From: Roseithermus sacchariphilus
GTDB lineage: Bacteria; Bacteroidota; Rhodothermia; Rhodothermales; MEBIC09517
NCBI GenBank assembly: GCA_003285105.1
Contig: CP030158.1
Location: forward strand, 248,001-312,000
Length of the DNA stretch: 64,000 nt
Direction of reading: 5' to 3'
Shown: piece after piece, positions 41,045 through 47,732 of the stretch
Numbering within the stretch: the stretch's first letter is position 1
Layout of the letters: every line of letters begins with the position of its first letter
The notes under the pieces: generated by a model
Databases searched by the model: none
What the model was told of the DNA's origin: nothing
The model's input: the letters and a program-made list of their open reading frames with translations, nothing else
Made by a program: the position numbers and the translations under genes

Positions 41045-42742
41045 TCACCGCGGCGTGTGGCGGGGGTCGGGCCAGGCCAGCTCGATGCCGTCCTGCACGA
41101 GCAGGCGCTGGAAGTCCGCCCGGTGCGCCGCGTCGGCATGGACCTCGTGGGGGCGCCGCCCCTGCCGGTGGCAGAACACGGCCAGCAGCCCGGCCGCCTC
41201 GCCGATGTTCCACTCCACCGGATGCAGCCGGTAGCAGCCGTTGGTGATGTGGGTGGTGCCGATGTTCTTGGCCGCCGGCAGCAGGTTCGTCATCCGCTGC
41301 GGCAGCAACGCCCCCAGCGGGATCTGGAACGGCAGCGAGGCGATGTCGACGTAGTTGTCGCCGCCCGTGGTCGGGTGCAGGTCGATGCGGTAGCTGCCGA
41401 TGCCGACGCTGTCCGGGAAGGGCGCGGCGGTGACCTCCCCTTCGGGCAGGCCCGTGACGGCCCGGCGGGCCTCCAGCCCCACGTGGACTTCGGTGACGGT
41501 GAAGACGGCCCGGATGCGCCGGGCCTCACGGATGTAGGGTCGCTTGGCCAGCCCGTGGTCGGTTCCCATCAGATCGCCGCGCAGGCGCAGGCCCGGCCAG
41601 CCGGTGCCGCCGTCTGGGCGGGGCGCCTCGGTCTGGAGCCAGTAGCACAGGCTGAGGCTGAGCCGCCGCGCCGCCTCGGCATGACGCGCCGCCACCTCCG
41701 GGGCGACGTCGACGAGGTTGCCGCCCAGGTAGTCGTTCTGCGGCCAGTTGACGAGCGTGGTGCCGCCCGGCTGGGCACCGGCACGGAAGCGCGCCGGGTC
41801 GGCGAGGCGGCGGTAGGCCCACAGGCCGGGCCGTTCGGCCCCGGGGCGCGGGTCGAAGGGCTGGGTGGTCGGCTCCAGCGTGATCGGGTGGGAGTAGGTC
41901 AGGCTGAGCAGCGGCCCGGGCCACGGCGGCGTCAGCGCCGGCACGTAGGCCCGCCAGGCCGCATAATCCGGCGGCGGCTCGATGGTATGGTCGGCCCCGG
42001 GCTCGTAGCTCAGCGCGAAGCACCAGGTCGGCGCCTGCACGTTGTCCGGGCGGGCCACGGACGCGGCGTGCGGCTCGCCCGTGGCGGCCTGCGCCTCGCT
42101 GCCGATCACGTATTCCGTGCCCGTCATCGGCAGCAGGTCGCCCTGCTCGGTCGCATCCAGCACGAACGGGGCCGTCAGCACCCGTTCCGCGCCGCTCCGC
42201 TCGTCCCGGACCGTCACGGCGCGCACGCGGTCGCCGTCGACCTCGGCACGGACCGGGCGGTGCTCCAGCAACACCCGGAGCCGCCCCGCGGCCCGGTACG
42301 GCGCCATCATCGCCTCCAGCACCGCCAGCGCCACACGCGGCTCGTGGCACAGCGAGGACACCCAGCACGAGCCCGGGTTCAGGACGGGGTCGGCCAGGGC
42401 CTCGGCGGTCAGCGGGTACCAGGCCCGGTAGTAGTCGCGTACGGCCTGGCGGAAGCGCCGGTAGCTGCGCGTCGCCCCGAACTGCTCGACCCACGGGTGC
42501 TCGTCCGGCGGCACGCCCTGCTGCGTGAGCTGCCCGCCGATCCAGTCGGTTTCCTCCGTCAGGATCACCCGCAGCCCGTGTCGCGCGGCCGCCAGCGCCG
42601 CCGCACAGCCCCCCACCCCACCGCCGACGACGAGCACGTCCGCTGCCGCCTCACCCCGCACCGCCGGCCCGAGCGGCCGGCCACGCAGGGACAGGCCGAA
42701 GCCTCCGGCCGCCAGGTGTTTCAGGAAGCGACGTCGATGCAT
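41045..42742 (-). CDS. FAD-dependent oxidoreductase (FAD_oxidored family, Tat-like signal)
   Basis: This 565-residue protein starts MHRRRFLKHLAAGGFGL, a twin-arginine-type export signal, then a Rossmann FAD site, DVLVVGGGVGGCAAALAAARHG (in two parts, from residue 35). WIGGQLTQQGVPPDEH, FVLDATEQGDLLPMTGTEYV and a C-terminal LLPAAKNIGTTHITNGCYRLHP are typical of the FAD_oxidored (PF12831) group found in polysaccharide-related loci of Bacteroidetes and Planctomycetes. The substrate is unknown. It follows galU in transcription order, with a 41-base gap. Confidence 0.85.
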   Translation of the reverse strand: MHRRRFLKHLAAGGFGLSLRGRPLGPAVRGEAAADVLVVGGGVGGCAAALAAARHGLRVILTEETDWIGGQLTQQGVPPDEHPWVEQFGATRSYRRFRQAVRDYYRAWYPLTAEALADPVLNPGSCWVSSLCHEPRVALAVLEAMMAPYRAAGRLRVLLEHRPVRAEVDGDRVRAVTVRDERSGAERVLTAPFVLDATEQGDLLPMTGTEYVIGSEAQAATGEPHAASVARPDNVQAPTWCFALSYEPGADHTIEPPPDYAAWRAYVPALTPPWPGPLLSLTYSHPITLEPTTQPFDPRPGAERPGLWAYRRLADPARFRAGAQPGGTTLVNWPQNDYLGGNLVDVAPEVAARHAEAARRLSLSLCYWLQTEAPRPDGGTGWPGLRLRGDLMGTDHGLAKRPYIREARRIRAVFTVTEVHVGLEARRAVTGLPEGEVTAAPFPDSVGIGSYRIDLHPTTGGDNYVDIASLPFQIPLGALLPQRMTNLLPAAKNIGTTHITNGCYRLHPVEWNIGEAAGLLAVFCHRQGRRPHEVHADAAHRADFQRLLVQDGIELAWPDPRHTPR

Positions 42743-42783
42743 GGGAGCGTGCGGATGGCGGCATGAACACGGTACGGGGCAGG

Positions 42784-43674
42784 TCAGGCCATCTCCCCCA
42801 GGCGGGCCTGCAGGTGGGCCAGCACCGCCTCGCGCGTGTCCTCGCGGCGGAGCGCGTAGTCGATGAAGCAACGGGCGTACTCGACGCGGTTGCCGATGTC
42901 GTACCGGCGCGCCTGCCAGGCCAGCGCGTACATCGGCTGCTGCTGCGCCAGCAGGTTCATCGCGTCGGTCAGCTGGATCTCGCCGCCGACGCCCTCCCTC
43001 GTCCGATCGAGGCAGGCGAAGATCTCCGGCGTGAAGATGTAGCGCCCGGCGATGGCCAGGTTGCTCGGCGCCGCCTCGGGCGCGGGCTTCTCGACGAGCT
43101 GATGCAGGCGGTAGAGGTCCGGGTAGTCCGGGTCCGGGGTGCCGTCGACGATCCCGTAGCGCTGCACCCACTCGCGGGGGACGCGGTGGACGGCCACGAC
43201 GCTGGCCTGCCGGGCCTCGTAGGCGTCTATGAGCTGCCGCAGCCCGGGCCGCTCGTCCCCGATCGGGTCGATGATGGTGTCCCCGAGCAGCACGGCGAAG
43301 GGCTCCTCCCCGATGTGCCGGCGGCCGATGCGGATGGCATCGCCCAGGCCGCGCTGCTCCTTCTGGCGGATGTAAAAGATCCGCACCTGATCCCCGATGC
43401 CGCGCACCTGGTCGATGAGATCCCCCTTGCCGGCCTCCTTCAGGAAGACCTCCAGCTCCGGCGCGTAGTCGAAGTGGTTCTCGATGGCCCGCTTGCCGCG
43501 GCCGGTGATGATCAGGATGTCTTCGATCCCGCTCGCCACGGCCTCCTCGATGACGTACTGGAGCACCGGCTTGTCGATGATGGGCAGCATCTCCTTCGGC
43601 ATCGACTTCGTGGCCGGGAGAAACCGCGTGCCCATGCCGGCGGCGGGAATGATGGCTTTGGTGACGGGCTTCAC
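42784..43674 (-). CDS. galU: UTP-glucose-1-phosphate uridylyltransferase
   Basis: This 296-residue nucleotidyltransferase makes UDP-glucose from UTP and glucose-1-phosphate. IIPAAGMGTRFLPATKSMPKE at the N-terminus, LLGDTIID and VEKPAPEAAPSNLAIAGRYIF are intact. The start codon is GTG at 43674, directly preceded by nine heptamer units. It neighbours a GHMP kinase of the glucuronokinase type, which raises the question of whether it also accepts glucuronic acid-1-phosphate. Confidence 0.93.
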   Translation of the reverse strand: MKPVTKAIIPAAGMGTRFLPATKSMPKEMLPIIDKPVLQYVIEEAVASGIEDILIITGRGKRAIENHFDYAPELEVFLKEAGKGDLIDQVRGIGDQVRIFYIRQKEQRGLGDAIRIGRRHIGEEPFAVLLGDTIIDPIGDERPGLRQLIDAYEARQASVVAVHRVPREWVQRYGIVDGTPDPDYPDLYRLHQLVEKPAPEAAPSNLAIAGRYIFTPEIFACLDRTREGVGGEIQLTDAMNLLAQQQPMYALAWQARRYDIGNRVEYARCFIDYALRREDTREAVLAHLQARLGEMA

Positions 43675-43737
43675 GATGCAGCGAATGGGTTGGGGAAAGA
43701 GGTCGGAGGGTGAGGGTCGGAGGATGAGGGACGCGGG
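43675..43737 (-). repeat. Heptamer-periodic leader of galU
   Basis: Nine 7-base units abut the GTG start without a phase slip. On the plus strand the best units are tcggagg and gtgaggg, alternating. Confidence 0.65.
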
Positions 43738-43761
43738 TCGTTTTCTGCCGGGCCGTTCTCG

Positions 43762-44763
43762 CTACGCCTCGATCTGCGGGACGATGAGCCGGGCCCCGAA
43801 CTCGGCATAGGCGTTCTCGAGCGCCGCGAGCCGGTCCGGGTCGCCGTCGTAGACCCCGATGACGGCCCCGCCGGAGCCGGCGAATTTGACGTGCGCCCCG
43901 CCACGCCGGCCGATGTCGATGAGTTGCTGGTTGCGGGGGCTGATCTGCGTGATCCGGGCGCGCAGGTCGAAGTTGGCGTCCATCAGCGGCCCGATCTCGT
44001 CGCCCCGGCCGGCCACGATCAGGTCCCGGGCCTCCTGGGCGTAGGCCGCGAACGTCTGCATGGCCTCCCGCACGACCGGGTCGCCCCGCCGGAAGCGGCT
44101 GCGCAGGTCGTTGTGCGTGACCTCGGAGCCCTCGGAGTTACCGTCGTGGTAGGCCACGAAGAGGGGCGGGAGGTTTTCCACCGGCAGCGGCTCGTACCGG
44201 CCGAAGCCCTGCCGTTCCATCGTCTCCCGGTCGAAGTCCATGAACACCACGCCCTCGTAGACCTGGATGACGCGGTCCTGCAGGCCGGCGCCCAGGCCGA
44301 GTTCATCCACCTCGACGCTCAGGATCAGGTTGGGAAGCTGCGGTTGGGGAATGACGACGCCGTAGAAGTTCATCAGCGCCCGCATCGTGGCGGTGATGAT
44401 GCCGCTGGACCCGGCCAGGCCGATGCGGACCGGGATGTCGGTGGCATACTCGATGGTGAAGTTGCGGCGGTCGAGGTGGATGCCCTGCCGCTCGCAGTAG
44501 TCGCTGAAGGCTTTGATCGTCGCCTTGATGAGGCGGATGCCGCCGTAGTAGCCGTTGAGGCGCACGTCCTCGACCAGCGCCTCGCGGCTCTCGAACTCGA
44601 GATGGTCGCGCCGCCCCGGGCGGATGGCCACGCGGGGCGACTCGTAGCAGGTCACCCGCGCGGCGAAGTTGCGGACGATCAGCGAGATGGTCTTACCGAA
44701 GTACCCGTCCGACGGATTGCCGATGAGGCCCGCGCGGGCGTAGGCGCTGGTGTGGATGATCAT
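43762..44763 (-). CDS. GHMP kinase, glucuronokinase-like
   Basis: This 333-residue sugar kinase has the GHMP ATP loop PVRIGLAGSSGIIT (residues 111-124) and a C-terminal HVKFAGSGGAVIGVYDG. The N-terminal motif LIGNPSDGYFGKTISL, NGYYGGIRLIKA and AGLQDRVIQVYEGVVFMDF closely parallel plant glucuronokinase (D-glucuronate + ATP to glucuronate-1-phosphate) as I recall that sequence. It is transcribed just ahead of galU, a UTP-sugar-1-phosphate uridylyltransferase. The two could salvage a free sugar acid to a UDP-sugar. Other C1 sugar kinases (e.g. mannose or heptose types) remain possible. Confidence 0.8.
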   Translation of the reverse strand: MIIHTSAYARAGLIGNPSDGYFGKTISLIVRNFAARVTCYESPRVAIRPGRRDHLEFESREALVEDVRLNGYYGGIRLIKATIKAFSDYCERQGIHLDRRNFTIEYATDIPVRIGLAGSSGIITATMRALMNFYGVVIPQPQLPNLILSVEVDELGLGAGLQDRVIQVYEGVVFMDFDRETMERQGFGRYEPLPVENLPPLFVAYHDGNSEGSEVTHNDLRSRFRRGDPVVREAMQTFAAYAQEARDLIVAGRGDEIGPLMDANFDLRARITQISPRNQQLIDIGRRGGAHVKFAGSGGAVIGVYDGDPDRLAALENAYAEFGARLIVPQIEA

Positions 44764-44807: not shown

Positions 44808-47732
44808 TTACCCCGCCAGCGCGTCCAGCAGGATCTGCGCCGGGTGCAGGGCCGTGCGGCCGGCGGCATCTTCGATCTGGGCGCGGCAGGACGTGCCGGC
44901 GGCGGCCACCAGCGTGTCCGCCCCCGCGGCGCGCACGGCGGGCGCCAGGCGGCGCTCGGCCATCGCCAGCGAGACGTCCACGTGCTCGGCCTCGTAGCCG
45001 AAGGCCCCGGCCATGCCGCAGCAGCTCGTGTCCAGCACCTCGACGCGGTAGTTTGGCGGCAGGCTCAGGCAGCGCACGGCCGGCCCGGTCCCGACCAGCG
45101 CCTTCTGGTGGCAGTGCCCGTGCAGCAGCACCGTGCGCGCCGCCTCGGTCCACGCCACCCCGTCGAGCCGCCCCTCGGCGGCGAGGCGAGCGACGTACTC
45201 CTCGAAGGTGACGGCCACCTCGGCCAGATCGCGGGCATAGGCATCACCGGGCAGCAGGTTCAGAAACTCGTCGCGGAAGGTCAGGATGCAGCTCGGCTCC
45301 AGGCCGATGATCGGCAGGCCCTCGGCCGCGTAGGGGTGCAGCGCCTCGACCGTCCGCAGCGCCTGCTGCTGGGCCTCGGTGACGAGCCCTTTCGAGAGCA
45401 ACGGACGCCCGCAGCAGACCGGCTCCGGGTCCGGCACCACCACCTGCAGGCCGATCCGGTCCAGGAACCGGGCCGCGGCGCGGGCCACCTCCGGGTGGTG
45501 GTAGTTGCTGAACGTGTCGGCATACAGGACCACCTGCGGGCCGTCGGCCCGCCAGGTCTGCTTGCGGAACCACACGTGGAACGGCTCCGCGGCGAAGGCC
45601 GGCAGCGACCGGCGGCGGCTGATGCCCAGCGTGCGATCCAGCATCCACCGCACCGGCGCCAGGCGGTTCACCGTGTTGGCCAGCCGGGCCAGGGTCCCCG
45701 TCATCCGCCGGCTCAGCTGCGGCAGGTGCGCGAAGAGCTTCGTCCGCAGCGGCATCTCGTGGACCTGCCAGTACTGATGCAGCCACTCCGTCTTCATCTT
45801 CGCCATGTCCACGTTGGACGGGCACTCCGTCTTGCAGGCCTTGCACTGCACGCAGAGGTCCAGCACCTCGTACAGCTCCGGCCCCGTCCAGGCCTCCGGC
45901 GGCAGTTCGCCGGAGAGCGCGGCGCGGAGGGCGTTGGCCCGGCCCCGCGTGGAGTGCGCCTCCTCCCGCGTCGCCATGAAGCTCGGGCACATCGCCCCGC
46001 TCTGCAGCTTGCGGCAGGCCCCGTTGCCGTTGCACAGCTCCACCGACGCCGCAAAGCCCCCGTCCTCCGACCAGTCGAGGGCCGTCAGCACCGGGATCGT
46101 GCGGTAGGTCGGCCCCATGCGCAGGTTCTCCGTCATCGGCGGCGTGTCCAGCACCTTGCCGGGGTTGAGCAGGCCCTGCGGGTCGAAGAGGCGTTTGACC
46201 TCGCGGTAGACGCCAGTCAGTTCCGGCCCGAGGAACCGCTCGAGCAGCCAGCCGCGCACGATGCCGTCGCCGTGCTCGGACGAGACGGAGCCGCCGTACT
46301 TGGCGACCAGCTCCATCGAGCCGAGGCTGATCTCCCGCATCTTCTCCACCTCGCGCGCGTCCTTCGTGTTGATGAAAGGCCGCACGTGCAGGCATCCCGC
46401 CGAGGCATGGGCGTAGTAGACCACCGGCGTCTGCGTCTCCTGCAGGAGCCGGTCCAGGTCCTCGATGTAATCGGCCAGGTGCTCGACCGGCACGGAGGCA
46501 TCCTCGATCACCGCGACGGGCTTGTAGTCGCCCTTGACGCCCATGATGAGGCCGAGGCCCTCCTTGCGCACGTTCCAGACGTTGGCGATGGCCTCGGGCG
46601 TCGTCGCCCGCACGACGGCATACCCCTCGCCGGCCTGCCGCAGCGTGCGCTCCAGGTCGTCCAGGCGGGCGGTCAGCTCGGCGTCGGTGCGGCCGAAGTA
46701 CTCGGTCAGCAACACGGCACCGGGCTCGCCCTCGATGAACGAGGCCAGCATCCCCGCAAACCCGGGCGCCCGGCGCGTCTGTGCGATGGCGACCCCGTCG
46801 AACAGCTCCACGGCCGACGGCTCGGTCCCCAAGATCGTCGTGACGCTGCGCAGCGCCTCGGCCCGCGTGCGGTAGTGGACGACGCCCACAACGGTGCGCT
46901 CGGGGCGGCGGACCAGGTTCAGTTCGATCTCGGTGGTGACGGCGAGCGTGCCTTCGCTGCCGCACAGGAGCTGGGCCACGTTGCGTGTCGCGGCCCCGTC
47001 GCCCGCCGTCAGCAGGCGTTCGAGGCGGTAGCCGCTGTTGCGCCGCCAGTGGCGGGGCGTGAACTGCTCGATGACACCGGCCTGCTCGCGCAGCAGCTCG
47101 TCGAGGCCCCGGTAGAGACGGCCGACCGCTCCGTCCTCCCGTATCCGAGCCTGCCAGCCCGCCGCGTCGAGGGGGCCAAAGGACGCCTCCACCCCGCCGG
47201 CGAGCAACACCCGCAGGCGATGGATGTGGTCGACGACGTTCCCGTAGAGGATGGAGTGCGTGCCCGTGGCGTTGGTGGCCACCATGCCCCCGAGGGTGGC
47301 CCGGTTGCCACTCGACGGGTCCGGCCCGACCATCCAGCCGTGGGGGTGCAGCGCCGCGTTGAGCCGGTCCAGCGTCAGCCCCGGCTCGACGCGCACCCGC
47401 CCGGCCTCGGCGTCGATCTCATGGATGGCGTCGAGGTGCTTCGTAAAGTCGATCACAAGCGCGGCCCCGACGGCCTGCCCGGCCAGCGACGACCCGCCGC
47501 CGCGCGGCAGCACCGGCACGCCGTAGCGGGCCGCCGCCTCCATCGCCGCCTGCACGTCGTCCGGGTGTTTCGGAATCAGCACCCCCACCGGGGAGATCTG
47601 GTACAGGCTGGCATCGGTGGCATAGAGGGCGCGGGACACGGCATCCATGCGGAGATCCCCGGACAGACGGGGCCGCAACGCCGCTTCGAAGTCGGCCAGC
47701 AGTTCGGCAGATACGGCCAGAGCGGAAGACAT
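44808..47732 (-). CDS. FAD-binding and Fe-S fusion dehydrogenase (YdiJ/D-2-hydroxyacid type)
   Basis: This 974-residue fusion has an FAD_binding_4 domain (about 40-190: VLPRGGGSSLAGQAVG, DPSSGNRATLGGMVATNA), an FAD-oxidase C domain (to about 500: VSSEHGDGIVRGWL), a ferredoxin-like segment (LCVQCKACKTECP near 627) and two CCG-type cysteine domains (EPVCCGRP, then HGHCHQKAL and DTSCCGMAGAFGYE). The order matches E. coli YdiJ, a D-2-hydroxyglutarate dehydrogenase, and related D-lactate/glycolate oxidases. It passes electrons to the quinone pool or another carrier. The exact substrate is not determined. Confidence 0.9.
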   Translation of the reverse strand: MSSALAVSAELLADFEAALRPRLSGDLRMDAVSRALYATDASLYQISPVGVLIPKHPDDVQAAMEAAARYGVPVLPRGGGSSLAGQAVGAALVIDFTKHLDAIHEIDAEAGRVRVEPGLTLDRLNAALHPHGWMVGPDPSSGNRATLGGMVATNATGTHSILYGNVVDHIHRLRVLLAGGVEASFGPLDAAGWQARIREDGAVGRLYRGLDELLREQAGVIEQFTPRHWRRNSGYRLERLLTAGDGAATRNVAQLLCGSEGTLAVTTEIELNLVRRPERTVVGVVHYRTRAEALRSVTTILGTEPSAVELFDGVAIAQTRRAPGFAGMLASFIEGEPGAVLLTEYFGRTDAELTARLDDLERTLRQAGEGYAVVRATTPEAIANVWNVRKEGLGLIMGVKGDYKPVAVIEDASVPVEHLADYIEDLDRLLQETQTPVVYYAHASAGCLHVRPFINTKDAREVEKMREISLGSMELVAKYGGSVSSEHGDGIVRGWLLERFLGPELTGVYREVKRLFDPQGLLNPGKVLDTPPMTENLRMGPTYRTIPVLTALDWSEDGGFAASVELCNGNGACRKLQSGAMCPSFMATREEAHSTRGRANALRAALSGELPPEAWTGPELYEVLDLCVQCKACKTECPSNVDMAKMKTEWLHQYWQVHEMPLRTKLFAHLPQLSRRMTGTLARLANTVNRLAPVRWMLDRTLGISRRRSLPAFAAEPFHVWFRKQTWRADGPQVVLYADTFSNYHHPEVARAAARFLDRIGLQVVVPDPEPVCCGRPLLSKGLVTEAQQQALRTVEALHPYAAEGLPIIGLEPSCILTFRDEFLNLLPGDAYARDLAEVAVTFEEYVARLAAEGRLDGVAWTEAARTVLLHGHCHQKALVGTGPAVRCLSLPPNYRVEVLDTSCCGMAGAFGYEAEHVDVSLAMAERRLAPAVRAAGADTLVAAAGTSCRAQIEDAAGRTALHPAQILLDALAG

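Follow-up and report, generated by a model that had tools for sequence, protein, structure and literature searches.

Does the pairing of a sugar kinase gene with galU allow a bacterium to turn free glucuronate back into UDP-glucuronate? Free glucuronate is usually seen as bacterial food, degraded through UxaC, and to our knowledge descriptions of glucuronokinase and of UDP-glucuronate salvage come solely from plants and lower animals. The locus that raises the question lies in a window of 64,000 nt from Roseithermus sacchariphilus (the window being the whole stretch of DNA analysed; all positions below count from its first letter), which belongs to one contig of 4.8 Mb. An initial annotation, made from the sequence alone, proposed that a glucuronokinase-like GHMP kinase and the neighbouring GalU could together convert glucuronate or a related sugar to a UDP-sugar. 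We consider it probable that the two genes make up one unit, in transcription and in metabolism, that serves UDP-glucuronate salvage, and for this salvage we infer the substrate, both reactions and the direction of flux.

The kinase gene runs from 43762 to 44763 on the minus strand and encodes, from an ATG start, a protein of 333 aa (P0001). It had originally been placed at 43675-44763; the upper end is right, while the lower end lies 87 bp beyond the stop codon, in the spacer before galU (43675 to 43761, minus strand). That the product is a GHMP kinase is borne out, as both GHMP domains score above their Pfam cut-offs (PF00288, 40.7 bits against 22.3; PF08544, 24.3 bits against 21) and LIGNPSDGYFGKTISL, NGYYGGIRLIKA and AGLQDRVIQVYEG, the motifs said to parallel plant glucuronokinase, are all present in P0001. 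Across 36 homologues that span many phyla, residues R10, G15-D19, G71-G74, G118-S120, Q162-D163-R164 and G296-A300 do not vary; these positions include the named motifs GSS (118-120), QDR (162-164) and GSGGA (296-300). Because of this invariance and a confident AlphaFold2 model (pLDDT 91.7), the motifs are not a matter of chance. Compared with the PDB, the model matches mevalonate, galacto- and heptokinases, with E values of about 1e-18 for the GHMP kinase fold, and the ATP-binding and catalytic motifs of that fold are intact. No NCBIfam equivalog names the protein.

The kinase is a member of a bacterial family that is highly conserved. When one genome per species was scanned, 568 relatives came up, and the best 80 of these share 54-73% identity and come from Rhodothermaceae, Planctomycetota, Acidobacteriota, Verrucomicrobiota, Hydrogenedentota, Sumerlaeota, Omnitrophota, Lentisphaerota, KSB1 and others. 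Carriers account for 126/388 genomes of Verrucomicrobiota (a set taken from the phylum to which a Verrucomicrobiales locus belongs) and for only 18/245 genomes of the window's class, the latter count pointing to horizontal spread within that class. In the tree, the window kinase groups with those of Rhodothermaceae, its nearest relatives, inside a Planctomycetota/Acidobacteriota clade. Annotated phage genomes yielded no kinase match, and IMG/VR contigs contained two relatives. One of these, 45% identical, lies on a putative viral contig (L182, IMGVR_UViG_3300009034_002981) among recA-, queC-, PTPS (queD-like) and radical-SAM genes, a setting like that of 7-deazaguanine gene sets; galU was not found near it on that contig.

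The best PDB sequence matches of the window kinase are the HddA-like chains 3k85 and 4n3o, but membership among the HddA heptose-7-phosphate kinases is rejected. The protein scores 28.3 bits against the NCBIfam HddA model (NF049969), for which the cut-off is 600 bits, and at the catalytic Asp it has QDR where HddA has QDQ. In a tree that set the family against HddA-like kinases as the representatives of other sugar kinases, the two sets are split by roughly 4-5 changes per site (support 100/100), each forming a separate clade on very long branches; the clustering with heptose kinases that the initial annotation had held out against its own reading did not appear. In sequence comparisons the family groups tentatively with a sequence that we take to be that of Arabidopsis GLCAK1 and use as a lead, not a test. 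This putative AtGLCAK1 scores 359 bits with the kinase-family profile, against 48-70 for HddA-like kinases, aligns over almost its full length at 38-47% identity, and matches 53/59 family-invariant residues, including 31/37 that are absent from HddA-like kinases. The basic residues K24, R77, R164 and R223 are among those invariant in this family only.

The second half of the proposal concerned the neighbour, and the gene is indeed galU (42784 to 43674, minus strand), on the same strand as the kinase and 87 bp downstream of it; in many relatives the two genes overlap or almost abut. Its 296-aa product, a GalU-type UTP--sugar-1-phosphate uridylyltransferase with a GLGDAI / GDT signature, scores 349.5 bits against the TIGR01099 equivalog (cut-off 326.8), which is also passed by five other kinase-linked GalUs.

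The pairing is not incidental: it is met again in many bacterial phyla, with either gene first. When the genes around the kinases were clustered, a single dominant partner emerged, GalU. It lies directly downstream and on the same strand in 36/72 kinase loci from many phyla, counting those with at least 400 bp downstream of the kinase, and in 20 of the 30 best Verrucomicrobiota kinase loci. Within the window's class galU adjoins the kinase in 18/18 carriers, four with the kinase first (two with 4-bp overlaps) and 14 with galU first, nearly all of these overlapping by 1-20 bp. Since both orders occur, the linkage must have arisen, or survived rearrangement, more than once. In the cultured Rufibacter tibetensis, a mobilizable plasmid carries the pair, and the annotations of the two genes read 'GHMP kinase' and 'galU'. 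GalU is otherwise scarce in the window's taxonomic order: it is present in 5/99 genomes, and the kinase carriers make up four of these five (Fisher p=1.3e-6, uncorrected for kinship; three of the four carriers share a family, so that there are fewer independent events). Two of the four (G161, G162) have a PF01704 UDP-glucose pyrophosphorylase besides the pair, and their GalU therefore need not serve UDP-glucose. Sequence and gene context together give strong support both to the identity of the kinase and to its functional pairing with galU.

Other neighbours and arrangements were seen around these kinases. In the window, a 974-aa FAD/FeS fusion (44808-47732, minus strand), with a part like the D-2-hydroxyglutarate dehydrogenase YdiJ and a GlpC-like domain, lies 44 bp upstream of the kinase, and an FAD-dependent oxidoreductase (41045-42766) follows galU; no YdiJ-like gene was found beside other kinases in the clustering of neighbour genes. 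Two Planctomycetota loci (L179 in G268, L180 in G265) encode a 640-650-aa protein made of a galactokinase-like GHMP kinase followed by a GalU-like nucleotidyltransferase, a candidate bifunctional sugar kinase/pyrophosphorylase with its halves in the opposite order to the fused zebrafish enzyme DrGKUP. The transferase half resembles a divergent GYGHA-type nucleotidyltransferase found in L167-L174, mostly Hydrogenedentota, where the kinase is unlinked and a close GalU is absent; this GYGHA-type enzyme may be the alternative partner of the kinase. In two Sumerlaeota loci (L032:4987-5988, L034:4999-5988) a GalT-like uridylyltransferase gene, with PF01087/PF02744 in the domain scan of L032, directly precedes the kinase, which suggests a Leloir-like transfer route for the sugar-1-phosphate. 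A gene judged from its sequence to be rsmI-like follows the kinase in 11 galU-less loci (L031, L045, L055 and eight more, mainly Hydrogenedentota), with an SSF-type sodium symporter upstream in three of them. Fusion of the kinase itself to galU was not found among about 130 kinase loci; long open frames of 593-615 aa around the kinase (L211, L213, L214) are not such fusions, and the window has separate ORFs with an 87-bp gap rather than a single bifunctional polypeptide of the DrGKUP type.

Where galU follows the kinase, its product has GLGDA and GDT in place of the GLGHA with GDD or ADD of aligned GalU structures, a few of these products deviating in the second motif (GDA, GDC or ADT). The same combination occurs in 13/15 close GalUs that lie elsewhere in 30 kinase-bearing genomes without an adjacent galU; the group with galU first has canonical GLGHA GalUs. 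We rejected the idea that GLGDA with GDT is exclusive to kinase-linked GalUs: among GalUs from plasmids, an archaeal one (Halolamina) has both motifs with no kinase gene in the stretch analysed, and those of the Firmicutes Listeria, Aerococcus and Lentilactobacillus combine GLGDA with GDD. Being enriched but not exclusive, the signature marks a GalU subfamily associated with the kinase and is no proof of a new specificity.

The kinase would use ATP to phosphorylate D-glucuronate at C1, a step that is well supported by homology and context. From the resulting glucuronate-1-phosphate and UTP, the adjacent GalU-subfamily enzyme would make UDP-glucuronate and pyrophosphate, a step that we infer from the linkage. 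Several observations go against salvage: half of the testable loci have no adjacent galU, and the window's galU encodes the sole TIGR01099 member of its own genome (G000), in which a PF01704 enzyme was likewise not found; the cell may therefore depend on this galU for UDP-glucose. Glc-1-P is the preferred substrate of characterised UDP-glucose pyrophosphorylases, two plant enzymes being quoted at <10% activity on GlcA-1-P (PMC12203929), and the pyrophosphorylase of DrGKUP itself was almost inactive (PMC3938481).

The lack of a second such enzyme in G000 and the preference for Glc-1-P lend some weight to an alternative in which the glucuronokinase is real and GalU is an ordinary UDP-glucose pyrophosphorylase, linked to it through shared UDP-sugar pools, while glucuronate-1-phosphate passes to another enzyme such as a GalT-like or RmlA-like transferase. 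The GalT-like gene directly upstream of the kinase in the two Sumerlaeota loci and the canonical GLGHA GalUs of the galU-first group would fit as well. However, this account sits poorly with genes that are linked in either order and overlap at their ends, with the near-absence of GalU from relatives that have no kinase, with a GLGDA/GDT signature that is common even where kinase and galU lie apart, and with the separate PF01704 enzyme that accompanies the pair in two genomes. We regard it as unlikely, although it survives better than the other alternatives. A more ambitious form of the salvage proposal is itself tentative and, in our judgement, doubtful: that the glucuronokinase works with a specialised GLGDA/GDT GalU that is a true UDP-glucuronate pyrophosphorylase, that the system is widespread in PVC and related bacteria, that it is the unfused counterpart of the animal/fungal GKUP fusion and of plant glucuronokinase and may have given rise to both, and that it completes an inositol-to-UDP-glucuronate pathway here.

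If the pair salvages glucuronate, the substrate in R. sacchariphilus could come from myo-inositol or from polysaccharide breakdown. The genome encodes a myo-inositol oxygenase (MIOX; G000:C1:1093576-1094298, minus strand, L146:7568-8461; PF05153, 364 bits), an enzyme whose product is glucuronate, so that the plant-type route from inositol through glucuronate and GlcA-1-P to UDP-glucuronate appears to be encoded, with MIOX unlinked to the kinase-galU pair. It is the only MIOX among the 245 genomes of the class and is also absent from 14 control genomes; its co-occurrence with the kinase (1/245 against 18/245 genomes) rests on one genome and is suggestive only. The MIOX gene adjoins genes for a TonB receptor, a periplasmic sugar-binding protein and an ABC ATPase. 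The genome also has two UxaC uronate isomerase genes, one near a GH88 unsaturated glucuronyl hydrolase, and salvage would compete with UxaC catabolism for the glucuronate released from polysaccharides. Two UGD-like dehydrogenases, which offer the usual route, are present in addition, and salvage is therefore not the sole source of UDP-glucuronate in this organism.

Further support for uronate chemistry comes from two Phycisphaerales loci (L023, L046), the only ones in which a TRAP transporter lies directly downstream of the pair, in the order kinase-galU-DctP-DctQ-DctM. The best PDB relatives of both DctP proteins include 4X8R, 4N8Y, 4N91 and 4MHF, of which the first is glucuronate-bound and the second galacturonate-bound (PMC11668362), and the last two are glucuronate and glucuronate/galacturonate binders (PMC7660916). 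The L023 protein keeps the ligand-holding Arg/Arg/Asn (FRSFYT, KIRVQESPT, AENN), and the transporter is probably of hexuronate type.

This transporter bears on a second alternative, that the substrate of the kinase is a neutral sugar, glucose being turned into Glc-1-P for instance, so that the pair makes UDP-glucose from free glucose. The known specificity of GalU would then fit unchanged, but a hexuronate transporter in the operon of two loci would be out of place, the invariant residues found only in the family match the putative AtGLCAK1 sequence, and the animal homologue is inactive on neutral sugars, glucose and galactose among them (PMC3938481); we find it improbable. No better placed is the idea that a different hexuronate, D-galacturonate for example, is the specific substrate of the kinase and that the pair makes the matching UDP-uronate. 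The galacturonate-bound 4N8Y does stand beside the glucuronate-bound relatives of the TRAP proteins, yet the galacturonokinase of Arabidopsis is described as very divergent from glucuronokinase (PMC3938481), and the MIOX of G000 would yield glucuronate. Finally, a place in the heptose (HddA/WcbL) or fucose kinase group, with the HddA-like PDB matches in its favour, is very improbable given the bit score, the branch lengths and the QDR motif described above, each of them a comparison with HddA or HddA-like kinases.

For glucuronate salvage, the initial annotation had called the route best known in plants. A closer precedent was overlooked: zebrafish DrGKUP fuses a glucuronokinase to a putative uridyl pyrophosphorylase, and this fused form occurs in fish and frogs (PMC3938481). 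The zebrafish kinase has a Km of 31 µM for glucuronate, and activity could not be detected with glucose, galactose, galacturonate or any of five further sugars; the authors of that work reported the prokaryotic homologues as lone pyrophosphorylases, described no bacterial glucuronokinase partner, and lacked a fully functional homologous enzyme as a positive control for the pyrophosphorylase half (PMC3938481). For bacteria, KEGG-type 'glucuronokinase' assignments appear in two papers on metagenomes (PMC8571626, PMC10687571), and our search of the openly accessible literature found no characterised bacterial enzyme of the kinase family. What appears to be new here is the operonic, GalU-linked bacterial form; glucuronokinase and UDP-glucuronate salvage themselves were already known. 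Databases list the two genes as 'GHMP kinase' and 'GalU'. If our reading is correct, many bacteria would re-activate glucuronate for polysaccharide or glycoconjugate synthesis, bypassing UDP-glucose, and the pair would provide a bacterial set of enzymes for making UDP-glucuronate, as well as a candidate functional control for the zebrafish pyrophosphorylase half.

Among known systems, the HddA/WcbL heptose kinases belong to the same superfamily and supply the nearest PDB sequence matches, but the window kinase falls far below their family cut-off, on a separate long branch and with other residues after the catalytic Asp. The Leloir pathway (GalK, GalT, GalU) likewise joins an anomeric GHMP kinase to a uridylylation; here, however, the kinase is probably not a galactokinase, and galT is absent beside it except for the GalT-like gene of the two Sumerlaeota loci. 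The plant MIOX pathway, with GLCAK and UDP-sugar pyrophosphorylase, would share the kinase motifs, judging by the putative AtGLCAK1 sequence, and the window's genome has a MIOX as well. The plant second step is carried out by a separate promiscuous USP without resemblance to GalU, whereas the bacterial second enzyme is of GalU type, with the domain PF00483 rather than the PF01704 of plant-type UDP-sugar pyrophosphorylase and UGPase, and is encoded next to the kinase. DrGKUP of zebrafish and Xenopus combines a GHMP kinase of glucuronokinase type with a pyrophosphorylase of the bacterial nucleotidyltransferase kind; the two partners are fused in animals and encoded by separate, often overlapping genes in bacteria. 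The best reading of the bacterial pair is that it represents the unfused counterpart of zebrafish DrGKUP.
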